From Flavobacteriaceae bacterium MAR_2009_75 (GTDB lineage Bacteria > Bacteroidota > Bacteroidia > Flavobacteriales > Flavobacteriaceae), in the NCBI GenBank assembly GCA_002813285.1, contig PHTZ01000001.1:1797501-1861500 (forward strand): a stretch of 64,000 nt of DNA, read 5' to 3'. A program made the translations under genes and the position numbers. The notes under the pieces were generated by a model. It worked only from the letters and a program-made list of their open reading frames with translations. It made no database searches and had not been told where the DNA came from. Position 1 is the stretch's first letter; the number at the start of each line of letters is the position of its first letter. Below, piece by piece: positions 19,623 through 33,414 of the stretch.

Positions 19623-19967
19623 ATGAGTATTATCAAAAATCACGTGCAATTAATTGGAAATATGGGGCAAGAGCCAACAATCACGAACCTTGAAATCGGC
19701 AAGAAAGTAACCCGATTTTCATTGGCTACTGATGAATATTATAAGGATGGCCAAGGGAACACACAGACCGACACGAATCGGCATACTATTGTTGCCTGGC
19801 GGTGGCGCACCGGAAAGCGGCATGAGAAACGGTCCCGTCACGGTACGGACATGGTAGAGGTACGCGTAGGGACCACCCGATGCATGCAAAACCACAGAAC
19901 AAATCCTTCAAAACGAAAAAATCCGCGAGTAGCTACTTTCCGCAGACTAATTATTCCTACCAGATAA
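19623..19967 (+). pseudogene. ssb: Damaged single-stranded DNA-binding protein gene
   Basis: The first 58 residues are a standard bacterial SSB OB-fold start: VQLIGNMGQEPTITNLEIGK, VTRFSLATDEYYKDGQGNTQ, TDTNRHTIVAW. After HTIVAW the expected strand (GK-x-AE-x-AEK) is lost and becomes Arg-rich (RWRTGKRHEKRSRHG), though GTDMVEVRVGTTR still resembles the following SSB strand. Small indels or substitutions have thus destroyed the middle and C-terminal half, and the acidic tail is missing. Extra ssb genes are common on plasmids and integrative elements; this copy is probably a relic of such an element. It could be expressed as a 114-residue protein but is unlikely to bind DNA normally. Confidence 0.7.
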
Positions 19968-22806: not shown

Positions 22807-25179
22807 TTATGCTTGCAATTCTTTCATAAGGTCATCGTAGGTATACGTTTTTTCTAGTGTCTTGTCTGACTTCTTATAAAGAATATCGGCTCGTATAGCT
22901 TTAAGACCAGAAACACCTTGTAGCCCTTCTAAATCGACAATCTCAACCTTTCCGGTAAAGTACCCTTTAGATTTCAAGAACTTTATGTAACGTAAATACT
23001 CTAGTTCGTCTTTCTTCTGAGAATAAACGATGACCATTTTACCCGGTTGCGTCAAACGTTCGTCAGTACCTTTGATAAAAGATTTATCAATTCTCTTCTT
23101 AATAACCTCATAGCGGGCATTATATGTACCATCTACATCAAATCGTTTTTCATCCATTCTAAACCGAATAGATAAAGAGGTATTATAGACCAAAACCAAA
23201 GATGCTACATCAAGCGGCACCGGCAACTCTGGCTTAAGTTTGTAGTGGGCGTTTTCCATCTCGCACATCACCTGCAATTGCCATAGCCTTAAGTTATTTA
23301 AAAAGATAGGATTATACTCCAGTTCACCAGCGATAGAATCACCGATATACATATTGTGTTCAACCCCATCAGTTTTGTAACGTTCGAAATAATGGGGAAA
23401 CATATCTTGTGCATTTCGCTGCTTTCTATCGATAAGTGCTGCCAGTCTTTTGTTGATCAACATGACACTTTCATCATAATTTCGACGGTGATCATAATAT
23501 GAGTCGGTACCCATATCAATAGATGATTCATAGGAAGTGATCAAATTACCGACTTCAGCATCTGATTTTTTCAAATGCGCAAATACTGGGTGTACTTCAT
23601 CGGCCACAAAATTGAATATTGCCTGTTCGCTATTGGTATGCAAGCTTTCCTTGATATTATCCATATGGTCATTGACCCTGAACATCAGTTCTTCGTATAT
23701 AGGTAGCTTATTCTTCTGCCAAGCCGCATCTAAAACTTGATTGACCGTAGAGAGTTGAATCATCAAATCACGCTGAATAGCGCTATTTCTAGCATCAGAA
23801 GAATTTTTAATATCTATTTGACCGTAAAGCGGATGCACTTCTTTAAAAACAATTTCTTTAAAAGTAGGCTGAATACCTTCAAGGTCGTCTTTGATAAAGC
23901 GTTTCGCCTCTTCTTGAAAACGCCAATAAACAGAGTCATGAACCGAAGTGCATTCATGTTGAATAACGGCATCTATTAAATTCTCTTCTTCACTTTTCGA
24001 TCGTAATACCGCTGAAACTATAAAAGGCATCACATCTTCAAGTTTATTTGCATTAACGCTGTTCAATGCATTTTTCTCGGTAGAGACCAATTCCAATACC
24101 CCTAGTAACTTATCGTTATCTGCGATGGGAGCGAATATGGCACTTTTAATACCTTGTTTCTTTAGATTCTTGTAAAAGTAAGCCTCAGACTTTTTTGCAT
24201 ATCTGTCTACATCAGAAATAGCATAATAAGATTTCTCTTTCAACAATTTATGGTACGAATGCGCGCAAAGCATTTCTTTACAATTATGGGTTTCTTTATC
24301 GCGCAGCACAAAACTTTCCATACCCTTGCCATAAACCGGCTCGAAACAATCGACTTTAGGGTTATAGATCATAAACCCCGCCTTAAGGTTGGCTCGATTG
24401 AAAAATGATTGAAAGGTTTCTTGTAGATTTTCTATAAAGCCTTCATTAGCTCTTTTATCACTTGCTATCAGACTTGATTTAATCTCTGAAATCGAATGTT
24501 CGGCCGTAACGTCGAACATATTCGATATTACGAAACCTCTAGAAACAAAGCTATTGGGCGGAATTTTATCTTTCCAGAGTTCAATATTGTCAAAATTCGC
24601 AAGCAATTCATCGATATCGTCTCTCGTAAGCTTTTTAGCCATTTCTGTCGGCTCTATCTCGATGAAATCGGCATTATAAAGTATGCGATAATGTCTCATT
24701 ACCCCATTTGCATCGGGTATATCATAGAAGAAAGGGCGTTTAAAGTCTAATGAAAAGCCGTAATAAAAGTTTAGAATTACGGTACAGGCCATCACATAAA
24801 GATGTTCTTCGGGCATATTTCGCATTTCAAGCACAAAATCATCGCCTGCATCTTTTATAATCTTCTTGAACCTTTTTGAAGAATTAAATATGATATTATC
24901 ATACGGCAACGAGGCAGCCTTTATTTCGTTCTCGGTCAAAACCTCTGAAAAAAGATCTTGCAAAAGAATCTGAATAAGATCTCTATGCTTTTCGAGTATG
25001 CTCTCGTCTGTAAACCCTTCTCGAAGTTCAGGATAAGGAGCTTGGGCAGCCAAGATACGCTTTGCCCTTTCGGCAAGATTGGCATCATCACTACTTGCCA
25101 TTTCCTCATACCTCTCCAACAATTTGTTAAAACTGATGAGCTGTGACAACGGAAACTCCTTTTCTCTTACTCCTTTCAT
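22807..25179 (-). CDS. Large GAF-domain protein
   Basis: A 790-residue soluble protein without signal peptide or membrane helices. The centre (about 245-400) is a GAF domain: SLIASDKRANEGFIENLQET start helix, FFNRANLKAGFMIYNPKVDC, KSAIFAPIADNDKLLGVLEL (typical GAF strand pair). The N-terminal third and C-terminal half are long helical regions with many charged residues and no known catalytic motif (no HisKA, GGDEF or HATPase). GAF domains sense small ligands or redox state. Flavobacterial proteins of this length and layout are annotated only as GAF proteins. It precedes the DUF58 gene by 41 bp on the same strand. Divergent from the metallophosphoesterase gene. Confidence 0.75.
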   Translation of the reverse strand: MKGVREKEFPLSQLISFNKLLERYEEMASSDDANLAERAKRILAAQAPYPELREGFTDESILEKHRDLIQILLQDLFSEVLTENEIKAASLPYDNIIFNSSKRFKKIIKDAGDDFVLEMRNMPEEHLYVMACTVILNFYYGFSLDFKRPFFYDIPDANGVMRHYRILYNADFIEIEPTEMAKKLTRDDIDELLANFDNIELWKDKIPPNSFVSRGFVISNMFDVTAEHSISEIKSSLIASDKRANEGFIENLQETFQSFFNRANLKAGFMIYNPKVDCFEPVYGKGMESFVLRDKETHNCKEMLCAHSYHKLLKEKSYYAISDVDRYAKKSEAYFYKNLKKQGIKSAIFAPIADNDKLLGVLELVSTEKNALNSVNANKLEDVMPFIVSAVLRSKSEEENLIDAVIQHECTSVHDSVYWRFQEEAKRFIKDDLEGIQPTFKEIVFKEVHPLYGQIDIKNSSDARNSAIQRDLMIQLSTVNQVLDAAWQKNKLPIYEELMFRVNDHMDNIKESLHTNSEQAIFNFVADEVHPVFAHLKKSDAEVGNLITSYESSIDMGTDSYYDHRRNYDESVMLINKRLAALIDRKQRNAQDMFPHYFERYKTDGVEHNMYIGDSIAGELEYNPIFLNNLRLWQLQVMCEMENAHYKLKPELPVPLDVASLVLVYNTSLSIRFRMDEKRFDVDGTYNARYEVIKKRIDKSFIKGTDERLTQPGKMVIVYSQKKDELEYLRYIKFLKSKGYFTGKVEIVDLEGLQGVSGLKAIRADILYKKSDKTLEKTYTYDDLMKELQA

Positions 25180-25401: not shown

Positions 25402-26304
25402 ATGTCATCGAACCAAAGGATATCTAGAGCATACGAAAAGGCCAAGATTATCGGTTTTGATGATCATACCAAGTTCATTCTTTTTAGCGATTGCCACAGG
25501 GGCGACAATAGCTTTGCCGATGATTTCGCCAATAACAGAAACATTTATTTTCACGCATTGAGCTTTTATTACAAAGAGGGTTTTCAATACTGTGAATTGG
25601 GTGATGGTGACGAACTATGGGAAAATCTACATTTTGAGTCTATTTTCGAGGCACACAAAAATGTTTTTCAACTGCTACGAAAATTTCATTTAGAGGGGCG
25701 ATTGCACATGATATGGGGCAACCATGACATGGTCTACAAAGACCATGAATATGTCAAAACCCATTTAAGCAGTTATTTTGAACCGATAGATGGCAAATCG
25801 AAAGAACTTTTTGAGGGTATAAGTTACAATGAAGCTGTAATCTTAAAGCATAATTCTACCGACCAAGAAATTTTTTTGGCCCATGGGCACCAAGCCGACT
25901 GGTGGAACTATACCTTTTGGCGGTGGAGTCGTTTTCTTGTAAGGGTACTCTGGAAACCTCTTCAGGTATGGGGCATTGCCGACCCGACCAGCCCTGCCAA
26001 AAACTATACTGAACTCATTAAAATAGAGCGAAGAATAAAAAGATGGATTTTACAAAAAGACCTCATACGTACTATAGTAGGCCATACCCATAGACCAAGA
26101 TTTCCAGAGCCAGGCGATATCCCCTTTTTCAATACGGGAAGTTGTGTTCACCCCAGAAGCATAACCGGTATCGAAATCGAGGGGGGTGAAATCTCATTGG
26201 TCAAGTGGCAAATAGCAACGACCGAAGATGGCATTTTACGAGTGGTGAGAATATTATTGGAGGGGCCTCAAAAACTTATCGAGTACCAAAACCAAAAAGA
26301 ATAA
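25402..26304 (+). CDS. Calcineurin-like metallophosphoesterase
   Basis: A 300-residue cytoplasmic phosphoesterase with every metal-binding motif of the superfamily intact: D30-x-H32 in FSDCHRGDN, G-D68-G-D in ELGDGDELWE, G-N107-H108-D in IWGNHDMVYK, a His in AHGHQADWW, and G-H228-x-H230 in VGHTHRPRF. It has an insertion rich in Trp and Tyr (WWNYTFWRWSRFLVRVLWKP) that may associate with a membrane or lipid, as in UDP-2,3-diacylglucosamine pyrophosphatase-type relatives; that substrate is only a possibility. It stands alone, 98 bp downstream ending before the AraC gene spacer. It is a useful contrast to the degenerate phosphoesterase domain at 29.7-30.7 kb. Confidence 0.9.
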   Translation: MSSNQRISRAYEKAKIIGFDDHTKFILFSDCHRGDNSFADDFANNRNIYFHALSFYYKEGFQYCELGDGDELWENLHFESIFEAHKNVFQLLRKFHLEGRLHMIWGNHDMVYKDHEYVKTHLSSYFEPIDGKSKELFEGISYNEAVILKHNSTDQEIFLAHGHQADWWNYTFWRWSRFLVRVLWKPLQVWGIADPTSPAKNYTELIKIERRIKRWILQKDLIRTIVGHTHRPRFPEPGDIPFFNTGSCVHPRSITGIEIEGGEISLVKWQIATTEDGILRVVRILLEGPQKLIEYQNQKE

Positions 26305-27507: not shown

Positions 27508-28785
27508 CTATTGAGCGTTGCAATCAAAACAACTAATATTGACTTCTTGAGCAGTTTTATCTTCAGAACCTTTTAACGGTTCTACTAAAAACTCTCGCTC
27601 TTCTAAAATATCTTTAAATGCTTGAGCATATTCCAATAAATTATTTCTCCTAATTTTGATAGTATTGGCGATTTCTTCCGCATCTAAATCACGGATATTT
27701 TCAGGCCAAACCTCAAAGGCAGCATCGATTGATTGATCAGTAAGCGAACTTTTAAGCCTTTGAGCTTCATTTAAGAACAACTCTAGCTCGGTTCCCTTTA
27801 GAAAATAGATATCGAAAGGCATAACCAAACCTGGCAAGTAATCGATTTCTTTATCAAAAGACTGTAGACCTGGCAGAATATGCCTATTTGAAATTAAGGT
27901 CGGTAAAATACCCTCAATTGTGAAAAAAGCGTTGTCACGATCCCCCGGCAGTGGTATCGCAATGAATTTTTCGTTTTTTTCTTGTATTACCCAGCCCCAT
28001 TGCTTGGCATGACGGTCCCAGTCACCAATTAAAATATCGAAAAGTCTAGCTCTTACCAGCAATGCCTTATCTATCGTAACCTTCTCGCCATGCTCTTTTC
28101 TCAATTCTTGTAAATCATCGGTATCGATAATTTCCTTTACCTGCTCAAAGTCCGTCCAATTAGCACCTCCCTCCGTTTCGCGCTCAAAAAGAAAAAGACG
28201 ATTACCGAATTTGTTATTATAGGCTCCCAAATGTTTGTGTTTCGGAACGAAAAATATTTCTGGTTGCGTATGTAAAATACCTGCCCTATCGGCCAATTGG
28301 GCCGCTGCGAGCGCTGCATAGGGGTGCTGTGCAGAAATACCATCGACAATAATATTTTCTAGACCTAGTTGTTTGGCAAATTCAGGGATCAAGGCTTTGG
28401 GGTCTTTATTGACTCCCCTAAGGGAAAACACAAACCCGTCTTTAGACCGAAGCTTAAGTGAATGGGTCTGCTTTCCACCACCTTCTTTCAAGATTTCCAT
28501 TCCCCCTTTCAAGGTATCAAGAAAAACAATGGGCACTTTAATCGGGGCGGCCCAAACCTCACGATATTGACTACCTTGAAAAATATCTTTGATTAGTGTA
28601 CTCTTGTATAGGGTACTTGCAGCTACTAGAACAGAGTCATGTTTTGTAAAATCAATTTTCTCAATATCTGCTACTCCTAGAATCTCACAAGTTGAAAACA
28701 CGTTATCTGTCGAAGACAGTGACACATAAAGAAACCCAATGAAAATTGCAAGTATAACCCCCACGATTACAAGTATCTTTCTCAT
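27508..28785 (-). CDS. Membrane-anchored atypical kinase-like protein
   Basis: Start at ATG 28785 gives a 425-residue protein beginning with a single membrane anchor (ILVIVGVILAIFIGFLYVSL). The exported domain contains DTLKGGMEILKEGGGKQTHS, FVFSLRGVNK, RARLFDILIGDWDRHAKQWG (D255, D257) and PLPGDRDNAFF. The order Gly-rich block, strand with basic residue, D-x-D-R-H and D-R-D-N resembles atypical kinases of the HipA, PI3K/PI4K and Fam20 type (D-R-H...D-N), but this is inference from motif pattern. The same set of blocks occurs inside the three-part protein at 29.7-33.4 kb, so the two are paralogous. The C-terminus has SCFDCNAQ. Transcribed away from the DUF2652 gene; convergent with the AraC gene. 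Confidence 0.65.
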   Translation of the reverse strand: MRKILVIVGVILAIFIGFLYVSLSSTDNVFSTCEILGVADIEKIDFTKHDSVLVAASTLYKSTLIKDIFQGSQYREVWAAPIKVPIVFLDTLKGGMEILKEGGGKQTHSLKLRSKDGFVFSLRGVNKDPKALIPEFAKQLGLENIIVDGISAQHPYAALAAAQLADRAGILHTQPEIFFVPKHKHLGAYNNKFGNRLFLFERETEGGANWTDFEQVKEIIDTDDLQELRKEHGEKVTIDKALLVRARLFDILIGDWDRHAKQWGWVIQEKNEKFIAIPLPGDRDNAFFTIEGILPTLISNRHILPGLQSFDKEIDYLPGLVMPFDIYFLKGTELELFLNEAQRLKSSLTDQSIDAAFEVWPENIRDLDAEEIANTIKIRRNNLLEYAQAFKDILEEREFLVEPLKGSEDKTAQEVNISCFDCNAQ

Positions 28786-28974
28786 AACAACTAAAATAAT
28801 CAAGAAAATACACCTTCATCAATTATTGATTAATACATTCCGATATTTTTATAACACAAAACATTCTTGTTGGTTTCTACTTCTTACCTAAATGAATTTA
28901 TATCATACCGACTTCCTCATTCGAATAGTACAATTATAAAACCGATAGCACTAACTGTTAGAATGCCCTTGAAA

Positions 28975-29644: not shown

Positions 29645-29716
29645 ATGGCCCAGAAGGTCTACTTTAAAGACCACCGGCTTTACCTGTCGTGCCTAAACGA
29701 AAAAACCAAACGATGA
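29645..29716 (+). CDS. Possible 23-residue peptide translationally coupled to the next gene
   Basis: ATG 29645 opens a frame MAQKVYFKDHRLYLSCLNEK-TKR ending in TGA 29714-29716, which overlaps the ATG at 29713 of the large downstream gene (ATGA). Composition is protein-like, and KVYFKDHRLYLS resembles the first strand of flavobacterial NUDIX proteins, so it may be a fragment as well as a leader. Without conservation data its reality is uncertain. Confidence 0.3.
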   Translation: MAQKVYFKDHRLYLSCLNEKTKR

Positions 29717-32700
29717 ATTATTCTAAGTCTATCAAAAAAATATGGGCTTCTGGCTCCATATTGCTTCTTTCAGCCTGCGCCACTTACGCACCTCAAACAT
29801 CTTCAGATCTAACAGAACGAAAAAAGCTAGACAAGAAAGCTGTTCATACGTTTTATATTGCGGGAGGTTTTGGAAACATGGGCGATAACCCTAAAGCTAA
29901 AACTCTATCTCTACTGACTTCACATCTTTCGAAAGCTGATTCTGCGAGTACCTTACTATTAACGGGAGACAATATTTCAGCGTATGACAATTGGAAAAAA
30001 AATAAGGTATTTATTGACCGCCAGCTAACTTTGACCGAAGGGTTCAAGGGCAATACTATTTTTATTCCGGGCAACAATGAGTGGGAAAGCTACAATACTG
30101 AAAAAATCGAAAAAGTTGAGAAATATCTAGATGATAAAAATTTGGATGGTATAAAATTCTATCCGAAGAACGTATGCCCCATAGAACACAAGGTTATCAA
30201 TGATGACCTAGACCTCATTATAATAGATTCGAAATGGTTTATTTCTAATTGGTCGAGAATAGAGAACATCAATAAAAAATGTACCGATATCGTTACCCGA
30301 AGAAGATTTGCCGAAGAACTAGAGGGCTATATCAACGACGGGCAGGGTAAAAATATTATTATTGCCATGCACCACCCGATATTCAGCAATGGTGTCTACG
30401 CCGGCAAACAGAGCTTTAAGAGCAACATGGTTCTACTACCCCTTGTAGGTTCTGTTCGCAACGGCCTTATGAATCTTGGGGCATTCTCTCCTGATTTATT
30501 GAACTCAAGACGGTATAACTACCTCAGAATATTGGTGAGTTCATTGGCAAAGGCTTCTGACCGAATTACATTGGTTTCAGGCCACGAAGAAAGCTTACAG
30601 TATTTAAATGGTGGCAATATTCATCAAATCATTAGTGGCTCGCTGAGTAAAAATACAGTAACCCGAAGGTCAAAAGATAGAATCAATACCATCGGGGGAT
30701 CTCTGAGTTACGAGGGAAAATATTCCCATGGCATTCGAGGGTTCGCCAAATTGATTTATTTTGAAGACGGCTCGTCGCAGGTAACTTTTATAGATGAGCA
30801 CGGTGAAGAAACCGATGTACCCATCTTATCTGAACTAAAGTCCGATGAATCAGATTTTAAGTTCAGTGAGCAGAAACAAAATTCAAGAAAAAAAGCGCTA
30901 GTTGACGATTACGAGGAAATCAATAAATCTAGATTTTATAAATTTCTTTGGGGAAATCGGTACCGTAAGTATTTCGGGAAATCGGTGACTGCACCAGTGG
31001 CTCTTCTAGACACCTTATATGGCGGACTTAAGGTCACTAAAGAAGGTGGTGGTCACCAATCGTATTCCATTAGGCTTGAAGATAAAAACGGCAAGGAGTA
31101 TTCTATGCGCTCGCTTCGAAAGAATGCACTGAAGTTTTTGAAATTCAAGGTGCCGGGAGTTGCCTATACCCAAGACGATTACGATGACACTTTTACCGAA
31201 GAAGTCATTTCCGATTTCTTTTCTACCGCTCATCCTTATATGCAATTGGTCATTAACCCTCTGGCAAAGGCGGTAAACGTAAATCACTCAAGCCCATCAC
31301 TTTTCTACATACCGAAACAAGAACCGCTTGGCGAACTCAACGAAGAGTTTGGCGATGAACTCTATTTTATTGAAGAGCGACCATCAGACGAACAGTTAAA
31401 TTTTAAAGGCTATAAACGTACCATTAATGAGTCGGGCAAGATCAATGAGTTTGAGAGCACTACCGATATGTTCGAAAAAATCAGAAGCGACGAATCATAC
31501 ACGGTTGATCAGAAAGATTTTATTAGAGCTCGCATTTTCGATATGCTCATTGGCGATTGGGATCGCCATCAAGATCAATGGCGCTGGGTCGAATACGAAA
31601 CCAAAGAAGGCGATAAAACTTTTCTTCCCATACCGAGAGATCGTGACAATGCCTTTCCGAAGTTCGATGGTACCGCCATGAAATTCATTAAACTTATGGT
31701 ACCGAATGCAAGAAGATGGCAATCATACGGGCCGGAAGTCAAAAACGTAAAATGGTTGAACGTAGGCGGAAATCAAGTTGACCGAGCACTCTTGACCCGT
31801 TTCGGGCCAGAAGTATGGGTAGAAGAAGCTCAATTTATTCAAGAAAATCTGACTGAAGCAGATATTGATAACGCATTCAATAGATTGCCCCTTGAAGTGC
31901 AAGATGAAACAGCAAAGCAAATACGTGAAAACCTAAAAGATCGATTAACCTACCTAACCGATTATGCACATGAATATGCTGTTTACCTCGATAAATTGGT
32001 GGCTCTACATGCAACAGAAAAAGACGATAAAATTACGGTGACCCGCCTACCTGACGGAAAAACAAGAGTAGTGATGAAGCGCCTGCTTAGTAACGAAACC
32101 GATGAGCTTATGTTCGACCGTACTTTTGACAGCTCAAAAACAGATGAAATATGGATTTACGGCTTGGGTGATGACGACAAATTTGAGGTCTCGGGAGAAA
32201 GAAACAACAAAATTCTGGTTCGACTGGTCGGGGGCTACGGAAAAGATGTTTTCAATATATCAAACAAAAATTCTGTTAAGGTTTATGATTGGAAACATGA
32301 AGAAATCGAATTTACCGAGAAAATACCGAGAAACGAACTTACCGATGTTTACAAAACCAATACTCACCACTGGCGGTTCTTTGAAGAAAATAGTAATGTT
32401 GTCAAACCAAATATCGGTTTTCGAACCGATGATGGCTTTTATCTCGGGGCTACCAATATCTACAAATACAATGGTTTTAATGGCAACGATTTTAAACAGA
32501 AACATAGCTTAGCAGCCAATTATTATTTCAAGTTTAAGGCGATTGAATTAGATTATTCAGGTATTTATGCCAATATTTTTCCGAAATGGAATTTTGAAAT
32601 GAACGGCTATTATACCAATGACAGTTATTCGAACAACTTCTTTGGTATTGGTAACGAAACGCTCAACCTAGAGGATGATCTCGGAAGAGACTATTATCGG

Positions 32701-33414
32701 GCACGCCTGCAAAAAATACGTTTTGACGCTGGTATCGCCTACCATACCCTGAGATTGAAAGCGCTCTTTGAATCTTACAAAGTAAAAGAATTGTCTGAAC
32801 GGTTTTTCGTTCCTTCTAACCTTAATTCAGAGGTGTTCGGTTCGCAGAATTATGTGGGTCTTGAAACCTCTGCAAAGTACAACTTGGCCGATGCCAAAGA
32901 TTTTCCATCAAAATCGATTACTATGCAACTCGCAGCCGGTTATAAGGCGAACACGAACATTGGTGAAAATCAGTTCGGATATTTAGAGTTCAAAGCGGGA
33001 TTTAGCCATAAACTAATACCATCAGGTAATCTTGTATTTGGTACTTTAGGTGAAGTAAGAACAAATTTCGGCAACAACTATTTCTTTTATCACGCGCCCT
33101 CTTTAGGTGGCAATAATGGTTTGAGAGGTTTTCGAGATGAAAGGTTTACAGGCAAGACTTATTTCTACCAAAGCTCTGACCTACGCCTGCGGTTAAAACG
33201 ATATATTACCGCAATTGCCCCGATAACGGTTGGGGTTTATGGTGGTTTTGATTACGGTAGGGTTTGGTCACCTGCAGATAGCTCTAACGTATGGCATACC
33301 TCCCAAGGTATTGGTTTTTGGGCCAGTGGGGTTGATTTTATAACCTTGAGCGCAGGGTATTTCAATTCTGTGGAAGGCAATCTGGTTCAAGTCGGATTCG
33401 GTTTTGCTTTTTAA
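29713..33414 (+). CDS. Lipoprotein fusing degenerate phosphoesterase, kinase-like domain and outer-membrane beta-barrel
   Basis: Start ATG 29713 (1233 residues) gives a lipoprotein signal ending LLLSAC (Cys22). Residues about 43-320 align by eye to a calcineurin-like phosphoesterase, but its metal sites are eroded. Motif I is G51-G-F-G in place of GDxG. D86 in TGDNIS is kept. The GNHD site reads G120-N-N122-E. H220-H221-P is kept, and the GHxH site reads G290-H-E-E293. Residues about 420-700 form the kinase-like domain shared with the minus-strand paralogue: VTKEGGGHQSYS, GDWDRHQDQW (D615, D617), PRDRDNAF (D643, D645). Residues about 900-1233 are an Omp85/BamA-like barrel, with LRGFRDERF near 1138 and a C-terminal Phe (VQVGFGFAF). 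A predicted surface or periplasm-facing enzyme anchored in the outer membrane. Function unknown. Confidence 0.75.
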   Translation: MNYSKSIKKIWASGSILLLSACATYAPQTSSDLTERKKLDKKAVHTFYIAGGFGNMGDNPKAKTLSLLTSHLSKADSASTLLLTGDNISAYDNWKKNKVFIDRQLTLTEGFKGNTIFIPGNNEWESYNTEKIEKVEKYLDDKNLDGIKFYPKNVCPIEHKVINDDLDLIIIDSKWFISNWSRIENINKKCTDIVTRRRFAEELEGYINDGQGKNIIIAMHHPIFSNGVYAGKQSFKSNMVLLPLVGSVRNGLMNLGAFSPDLLNSRRYNYLRILVSSLAKASDRITLVSGHEESLQYLNGGNIHQIISGSLSKNTVTRRSKDRINTIGGSLSYEGKYSHGIRGFAKLIYFEDGSSQVTFIDEHGEETDVPILSELKSDESDFKFSEQKQNSRKKALVDDYEEINKSRFYKFLWGNRYRKYFGKSVTAPVALLDTLYGGLKVTKEGGGHQSYSIRLEDKNGKEYSMRSLRKNALKFLKFKVPGVAYTQDDYDDTFTEEVISDFFSTAHPYMQLVINPLAKAVNVNHSSPSLFYIPKQEPLGELNEEFGDELYFIEERPSDEQLNFKGYKRTINESGKINEFESTTDMFEKIRSDESYTVDQKDFIRARIFDMLIGDWDRHQDQWRWVEYETKEGDKTFLPIPRDRDNAFPKFDGTAMKFIKLMVPNARRWQSYGPEVKNVKWLNVGGNQVDRALLTRFGPEVWVEEAQFIQENLTEADIDNAFNRLPLEVQDETAKQIRENLKDRLTYLTDYAHEYAVYLDKLVALHATEKDDKITVTRLPDGKTRVVMKRLLSNETDELMFDRTFDSSKTDEIWIYGLGDDDKFEVSGERNNKILVRLVGGYGKDVFNISNKNSVKVYDWKHEEIEFTEKIPRNELTDVYKTNTHHWRFFEENSNVVKPNIGFRTDDGFYLGATNIYKYNGFNGNDFKQKHSLAANYYFKFKAIELDYSGIYANIFPKWNFEMNGYYTNDSYSNNFFGIGNETLNLEDDLGRDYYRARLQKIRFDAGIAYHTLRLKALFESYKVKELSERFFVPSNLNSEVFGSQNYVGLETSAKYNLADAKDFPSKSITMQLAAGYKANTNIGENQFGYLEFKAGFSHKLIPSGNLVFGTLGEVRTNFGNNYFFYHAPSLGGNNGLRGFRDERFTGKTYFYQSSDLRLRLKRYITAIAPITVGVYGGFDYGRVWSPADSSNVWHTSQGIGFWASGVDFITLSAGYFNSVEGNLVQVGFGFAF

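Follow-up and report, generated by a model that had tools for sequence, protein, structure and literature searches.

We analysed a 64,000-nucleotide stretch (the window) of the genome of Flavobacteriaceae bacterium MAR_2009_75 (contig PHTZ01000001.1, positions 1,797,501 to 1,861,500), which encodes P0001, a protein of 1233 amino acids read from a single uninterrupted frame at window positions 29713-33414 on the forward strand. From its N-terminus, P0001 consists of a lipobox with Cys22, a calcineurin-like domain, a kinase fold, an all-beta linker and a 16-strand Omp85 barrel (Table 1). A model of residues 35-1233 (predicted local distance difference test score, pLDDT, 89.1) sets the bounds of these parts, places the barrel strands at residues 894-1232 and contains no POTRA domain. 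The bounds given in a preliminary description of the locus were roughly right, except that the calcineurin-like part reaches to ~372 and the kinase fold occupies ~390-760. The motifs named in that description all lie at the residues given, with LRGFRDERF at 1137-1145 and the terminal phenylalanine at 1233, and the lipobox cysteine is present as LSAC22, the Cys being kept in 126 of the 129 full-length homologues that were used to score residue conservation. These motifs are far from chance, because homologues throughout the order and the phylum keep the frame open and key residues (R466, K470, D617, R618, D645, R744 and R1138) are identical in all 129.

Table 1 Features of P0001 and of two further genes, in window coordinates.
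Feature	Residues	Position	Strand	Basis
Lipoprotein signal peptide, lipobox LSAC (L19-S-A-C22)		29713..29778	+	Cys22 codon 29776-29778; translation
Calcineurin/purple-acid-phosphatase-like domain, metal site degenerate	~43-372	29839..30828	+	Ligand columns; Foldseek
Kinase-fold domain, uncatalogued family	~390-760	30880..31992	+	AlphaFold2 model and Foldseek
Glycine-rich loop GGGHQS	445-450	31045..31062	+	Each Gly 124-125/129, Q449 122/129; between two strands in model
Catalytic-loop-like GDWDRH	614-619	31552..31569	+	D617 and R618 129/129, H619 124/129; after helix, before two strands
Putative metal-binding DRDNAF	643-648	31639..31656	+	D645 129/129, D643 124/129; follows second strand past catalytic loop
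All-beta linker in place of POTRA	~762-876	31996..32340	+	Secondary structure of full-length model
16-strand Omp85 (BamA/TamA-like) barrel	894-1233	32392..33411	+	Model and Foldseek
Omp85 loop-6 motif LRGF	1137-1140	33121..33132	+	R1138 129/129, G1139 113/129
P0002, stand-alone exported kinase-fold paralogue, 426 aa, with GGGKQT, GDWDRH and GDRDNAF		27508..28788	-	BLASTP
DUF2652 gene (PF10851, 1.3e-30), directly upstream of P0001		29019..29624	+	Pfam match; carries PDISGFT and EGDA motifs

Structural modelling supports a two-lobed protein-kinase-like fold for the middle domain of P0001, as the preliminary description had proposed. An AlphaFold2 model of residues 390-785, built on an alignment of 86 homologues, reached a mean pLDDT of 93.5 and a predicted template modelling score of 0.93. 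When this model was searched against the PDB with Foldseek, CtkA was the top match (E=2.4e-6), the 23 best matches were CtkA, HipA, HipT and related bacterial Ser/Thr kinases, and all 24 matches at E<=0.001 were kinases. Fam20C was marginal (4kqa, E=0.012) and PI3K was absent from the 50 best matches. The order of secondary structure in the model is kinase-like: strands flank the glycine loop, a helix precedes the catalytic loop, and two more strands lie between that loop and the DxD motif. Of the residues considered for the beta-3 lysine and helix-C acid pair, Arg466 and Lys470 are invariant and Asp501 is kept in 126 of the 129 homologues.

No Pfam or NCBIfam model covers the kinase-fold domain above its cut-off. 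HMMER aligns GDWDRH with GNFDRH of CtkA at E=0.005 (0.016 with a wider homologue set), and scattered weak Pfam matches occur among the 86 aligned members (Fam20C in six, CotH in one, and HipA_C), all below gathering scores where these are shown. In the two window proteins, P0001 and P0002, weak Fam20C and HipA_C matches extend onto the DRH segment; HipA_C (PF07804) scores 14.1 bits on P0002 against a cut-off of 30.5 (E=0.038). Among the family members, Fam20C (PF06702) scores 16.8 bits against 26.8. Membership of HipA_C and of CotH (PF08757) is not supported: profile-profile probabilities of 0.2% and 2.7%, respectively, were not significant even though the catalytic motifs were aligned, so that the evidence reaches as far as 'kinase fold' but not to 'HipA' or 'CotH'. 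A phmmer search of the PDB with the single P0001 chain returned chance matches only, while PHROGs gave only weak matches, to families without known role. Weak PADLOC matches to the phage-defence candidate PDC-M03A (best 3.5e-6) were also seen on the kinase-fold segment of P0001 and of P0002, and probably reflect fold kinship with HipA-like proteins.

The phosphoesterase that precedes the kinase fold has lost metal ligands in P0001 (D52G, H122N and H293E). The calcineurin-type protein GAP50 (3tgh) matches the full-length P0001 model (Foldseek, E=3.1e-8), and Pfam Metallophos (PF00149) scores above its cut-off in the paralogue L002 (8.9e-8) but not in P0001. All seven scored ligand positions are kept in 104 of the 129 full-length proteins, and not in the other 25. 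The term pseudophosphatase, introduced earlier without reference to the missing metal ligands, thus suits P0001 and its clade but not the family. On a kinase-domain tree the degenerate rows require at least four changes, and the P0001 clade comprises 15 rows, all degenerate (support 97 by a quick method). In seven loci (L071, L079, L083, L086, L103, L115 and L128) degenerate and intact full-length genes lie side by side, within ~13 kb at most. The near-invariant putative catalytic residues of the kinase fold hold across architectures, including clades in which the phosphoesterase is dead, and their persistence next to a decaying fused enzyme suggests that the function resides in the kinase fold. 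The window encodes another calcineurin-like phosphoesterase as a separate protein at 25402-26304 (+), cytoplasmic by appearance (Metallophos_2, 4.2e-5, just under cut-off).

The Omp85-type barrel predicted for the C-terminus was recovered, with 16 strands in the model, the LRGF loop-6 motif, which fits the [VIL]RGF/Y pattern of the superfamily, and BamA (4k3c, E=7.9e-11) and TamA barrels (3.4e-9, TMt 0.74) as the best PDB matches of the full-length model; NCBIfam Omp85_fam matches P0001 at 7.7e-12, under its curated cut-off. Where the Omp85 superfamily is expected to have POTRA domains, the P0001 model has the all-beta linker; POTRA-less Omp85 subfamilies (Metallo and noNterm) have been accepted (PMC4104836). 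From Cys22 onwards the protein reads C-A-T-Y-A-P-Q-T, positions +2 to +5 being free of acidic residues, and inspection of P0001 by eye revealed no lipoprotein export signal of the surface-exposed Bacteroidota type (acidic residues after the Cys). Four features of P0001 suggest a periplasmic orientation of its soluble part: the lipobox, an even number of strands, the Phe at the C-terminus and the lack of acids following Cys22. The same is suggested by the precedent of PlpD, a patatin-Omp85 (type Vd) protein, whose patatin domain was once thought to be secreted and stays in the periplasm (PMC11116518).

The kinase-fold domain is present in 114 of 297 sampled Bacteroidota genomes, and 42 of 148 genomes of the same order encode homologues whose parts are arranged as in P0001. 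Open frames reveal three exported architectures: lipoprotein-phosphoesterase-kinase fold-barrel (~1200-1400 aa), signal peptide-kinase fold-barrel (~840-960 aa) and a stand-alone form (~430-590 aa), a signal peptide being visible in most kinase-barrel and stand-alone members that have a clear start. Loci L077, L082 and L113, which had been marked as phosphoesterase-free, are truncated or masked contigs and were not counted as an architecture. The best 79 loci in the genome-contig search belong to Flavobacteriaceae or to Bacteroidota bins; five plasmid matches come from Hymenobacter, Persicobacter and Parabacteroides, and none of the viral contigs searched encodes a relative. The MAR_2009_75 genome carries three full-length paralogues, P0001 included, and a stand-alone copy of the middle domain. 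The stand-alone P0002, which the preliminary description did not report although it lies in the same window, is 32% identical to P0001 residues 414-761 (BLASTP, E=3e-52). P0002 and P0001 were rejected as a conserved gene pair, the stand-alone gene lying elsewhere in other genomes. In one family (f23), stand-alone kinase-fold genes form clusters of two or three neighbours, and some of them encode lipobox-like signal peptides (L147:5129-10148 and L148:4436-7775).

In 59 of 79 Flavobacteriaceae loci, a gene for an HD-PycTM protein (PF18967 3.5e-37, HD 2.5e-9) lies near the three-domain gene. As a rule the two genes are divergently oriented neighbours separated by a few dozen bases, and in part of the P0001 clade the HD-PycTM gene is co-directional and directly downstream. 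A PF18967 search of the 297 genomes found both genes in 96, the kinase fold only in 18, PycTM only in 16 and neither in 167, and the kinase fold was present in 93 of the 95 first-listed, that is strongest, PycTM genomes. In 73 of the 85 genomes with both on one contig they lie <=6 kb apart, and these 73 span ~18 family codes (counted from tables) with several gene orders and orientations. Within Flavobacteriaceae the pair shows steady synteny and mostly single copies. Of 56 HD-PycTM partners, 54 retain the HD metal ligands. The existence of this partner gene suggests a two-membrane signalling pair. The only PycTM gene of the MAR_2009_75 genome (C1:2998899) is divergent from the intact paralogue L002 at 3000109.

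Directly upstream of P0001, the DUF2652 gene encodes a protein that is possibly class-III-cyclase-like: the best PDB match of its profile is the adenylyl cyclase CyaB, at a marginal E=0.015, and comparison with Guanylate_cyc gave a probability of 34% with the PDISGFT and EGDA motifs not aligned. DUF2652 recurs as a neighbour in the P0001 clade and lies near a kinase-fold gene or PycTM in genomes G000, G102, G358, G256 and G296; present in 24 of the 297 genomes, it is rarely linked to the family. A 790-aa protein with a weak GAF match is encoded at 22807-25179 (-), and in 43 of 79 Flavobacteriaceae loci a relative of it lies close to the three-domain gene, usually adjoining HD-PycTM. Elsewhere in the window, an open reading frame (ORF) at 19623-19967 (+) starts like a single-stranded-DNA-binding protein and then seems, by eye, to leave frame, possibly as a broken or frameshifted ssb copy. 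The window also adjoins a polysaccharide-degradation-like gene cluster with sulfatase-like and lyase-like ORFs.

Taken together, these data lead us to favour, tentatively and with somewhat less than even confidence, a reading of the P0001 family as outer-membrane-anchored, periplasm-facing phosphotransferases or phospho-ligand receptors whose normal partner is the inner-membrane HD-PycTM protein. Ancestrally, the kinase fold of such a pair would transfer or sense phosphate on an envelope substrate, the phosphoesterase would reverse or trim this, and the HD-PycTM protein encoded next door would be the partner across the periplasm. P0001 would be a paralogue that works through its kinase fold alone, because its phosphoesterase has lost the metal site, and the dead domain may serve as a binding or regulatory module. 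Architecture, fold, conservation, degeneration and gene linkage are computed results; the periplasmic orientation, catalysis, substrate and physical partnership in this reading are inferences. Several points weigh against this reading. Any kinase activity of P0001 is argued from fold and sequence rather than from enzymology, and the sequence-profile ties to known kinases are weak (CtkA at E=0.005-0.016; HipA_C and CotH not significant). The usual beta-3 lysine position appears to be taken by Arg466, with Lys470 four residues further on. The periplasm is thought to lack ATP, which makes the phosphate donor a problem for a kinase. P0001 itself has no PycTM neighbour, and the Fisher p-value of 1e-41 for co-occurrence ignores phylogeny, co-occurrence being partly shared ancestry; proximity in changing gene orders is a stronger argument than that p-value.

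The main rival is a pseudokinase scaffold, in which a non-catalytic fold would bind nucleotide, phospho-glycan or lipid phosphate and act as an envelope sensor or as an accessory factor in outer-membrane assembly. We regard this as a serious, if on balance doubtful, alternative. It would account for the Arg at the likely beta-3 position, for DRHxDQ where HipA has DRHxxN, for the phosphoesterase that is already dead in the P0001 clade and for a location without ATP, and it accords with the usual role of Omp85 barrels in assembling membrane proteins. However, the DRH and DxD acids are near-invariant while the adjoining enzyme decays, for which retained catalysis is the easiest explanation, and Fam20 kinases can be active despite non-canonical residues. 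A dedicated outer-membrane insertase or translocase of the BamA/TamA/TamL type, with soluble domains that take the place of POTRA and serve to recognise clients bearing phosphate or glycans, is improbable. The barrel matches to BamA and TamA and the loop-6 RGF motif would fit such a role, as would the importance in Bacteroidota of TamL, an Omp85 lipoprotein (PMC12045153), but the P0001 model has no POTRA fold, the kinase-fold domain also occurs without any barrel, and PlpD shows that an Omp85 barrel can merely anchor a periplasmic enzyme (PMC11116518). Moreover, the paper on the Flavobacterium johnsoniae β-barrel assembly machinery (BAM) complex mentions none of the terms searched (kinase, phosphatase and phosphoesterase), so that a P0001-type protein is not among the subunits it reports.

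The many surface lipoproteins of Bacteroidota, and the position of the window beside a polysaccharide-degradation-like cluster, would suit a type Vd-like phospho-enzyme, exposed at the surface or secreted, for scavenging phosphate or with molecules of a host or alga as its targets. This is quite remote, given that no export signal was seen by eye past Cys22, that the terminal Phe and 16 strands would put the N-terminal part in the periplasm, that PlpD, formerly thought to be secreted, was shown to be periplasmic (PMC11116518), and that the pairing with the gene of an inner-membrane protein is conserved in many families. Least credible is a part in anti-phage, Pycsar-like defence, for which the PycTM linkage speaks (HD-PycTM is a Pycsar effector family), together with the weak PDC-M03A matches on the kinase fold and DUF2652, perhaps a nucleotide cyclase, which adjoins PycTM or a kinase-fold gene in the five genomes named above. 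Against it, the steady synteny and mostly single-copy pair in Flavobacteriaceae look like housekeeping, DUF2652 occurs in just 24 of 297 genomes, the PADLOC matches may reflect kinase-fold kinship alone, and viral relatives were absent and plasmid ones few.

Extending the phosphotransferase reading to the whole phylum is more speculative, and we hold it unlikely as it stands: Bacteroidota would possess an envelope signalling system in which an outer-membrane kinase of the new family, periplasm-facing and with or without a built-in phosphatase, operates with HD-PycTM, and in which periplasmic phosphorylation is written, erased and read. If true, writer-only and writer-eraser pairs would have arisen through recurrent loss of the phosphatase site in one gene while its sister stayed intact. 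The link between the family and the HD-PycTM gene hints at a form of trans-envelope signalling that has yet to be described, and would give the 'Pycsar effector family' a role beyond phage defence. If the kinase fold is active, phosphotransfer would take place in a compartment believed to be free of ATP. The kinase-fold domain occurs in over one third of the Bacteroidota genomes sampled, yet is without a Pfam or NCBIfam model, and genes likely named for their phosphoesterase or barrel conceal the kinase fold in the middle. As Flavobacterium has genetics, the question is directly testable.

Among known systems, CtkA of Helicobacter pylori (3akj, 3akk and 3akl) is the best fold match (2.4e-6) and the best profile match of P0001 and shares its DRH catalytic loop, at ~10-13% identity and without a barrel or phosphoesterase. 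The HipA/HipT toxin kinases (PF07804), the next-best fold matches, share the kinase fold and a D-containing catalytic loop, whereas P0001 is exported, has no HipB-like partner and no HipA N-terminal domain, and the profile comparison is not significant. The Fam20 secretory-pathway kinases (PF06702) have weak Pfam matches in the P0001 family and also act outside the cytosol, while CotH (PF08757) matches weakly in one of 86 members, again with a profile comparison that is not significant. PlpD likewise has an enzyme domain N-terminal to a 16-strand Omp85 barrel; its enzyme is different, it has POTRA, and we know of no lipid anchor in it. A Riemerella anatipestifer metallophosphoesterase with phosphatase activity is reportedly listed as a type IX effector and is a possible member of the P0001 family. 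TamL/Omp85 lipoproteins, from the same phylum, combine a lipid anchor with an Omp85 barrel, but identity of P0001 with TamL was rejected, as TamL has three POTRA domains and its description mentions neither kinase nor phosphoesterase (PMC12045153).

The phosphoesterase-barrel part of P0001 is already known, because Heinz and Lithgow listed in 2014 an Omp85 'Metallo' subfamily with an Omp85 barrel, an N-terminal PF00149, which they termed a metalloprotease domain, and no POTRA (PMC4104836). The earlier view that no function had been described for such an arrangement must be narrowed accordingly to the kinase-fold middle, since a kinase is never mentioned there. The open-licence papers searched yielded nothing on that middle, on relatives of kinase-barrel or stand-alone form, on clades with a dead phosphatase or on linkage to HD-PycTM, which is weak evidence of absence. 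Compared by description rather than by protein identity, P0001 differs from 'Metallo' in the kinase-fold domain between PF00149 and the barrel, and, whereas 'Metallo' is described as conserved at genus level (PMC4104836), the P0001 family extends to 114 of 297 Bacteroidota genomes.

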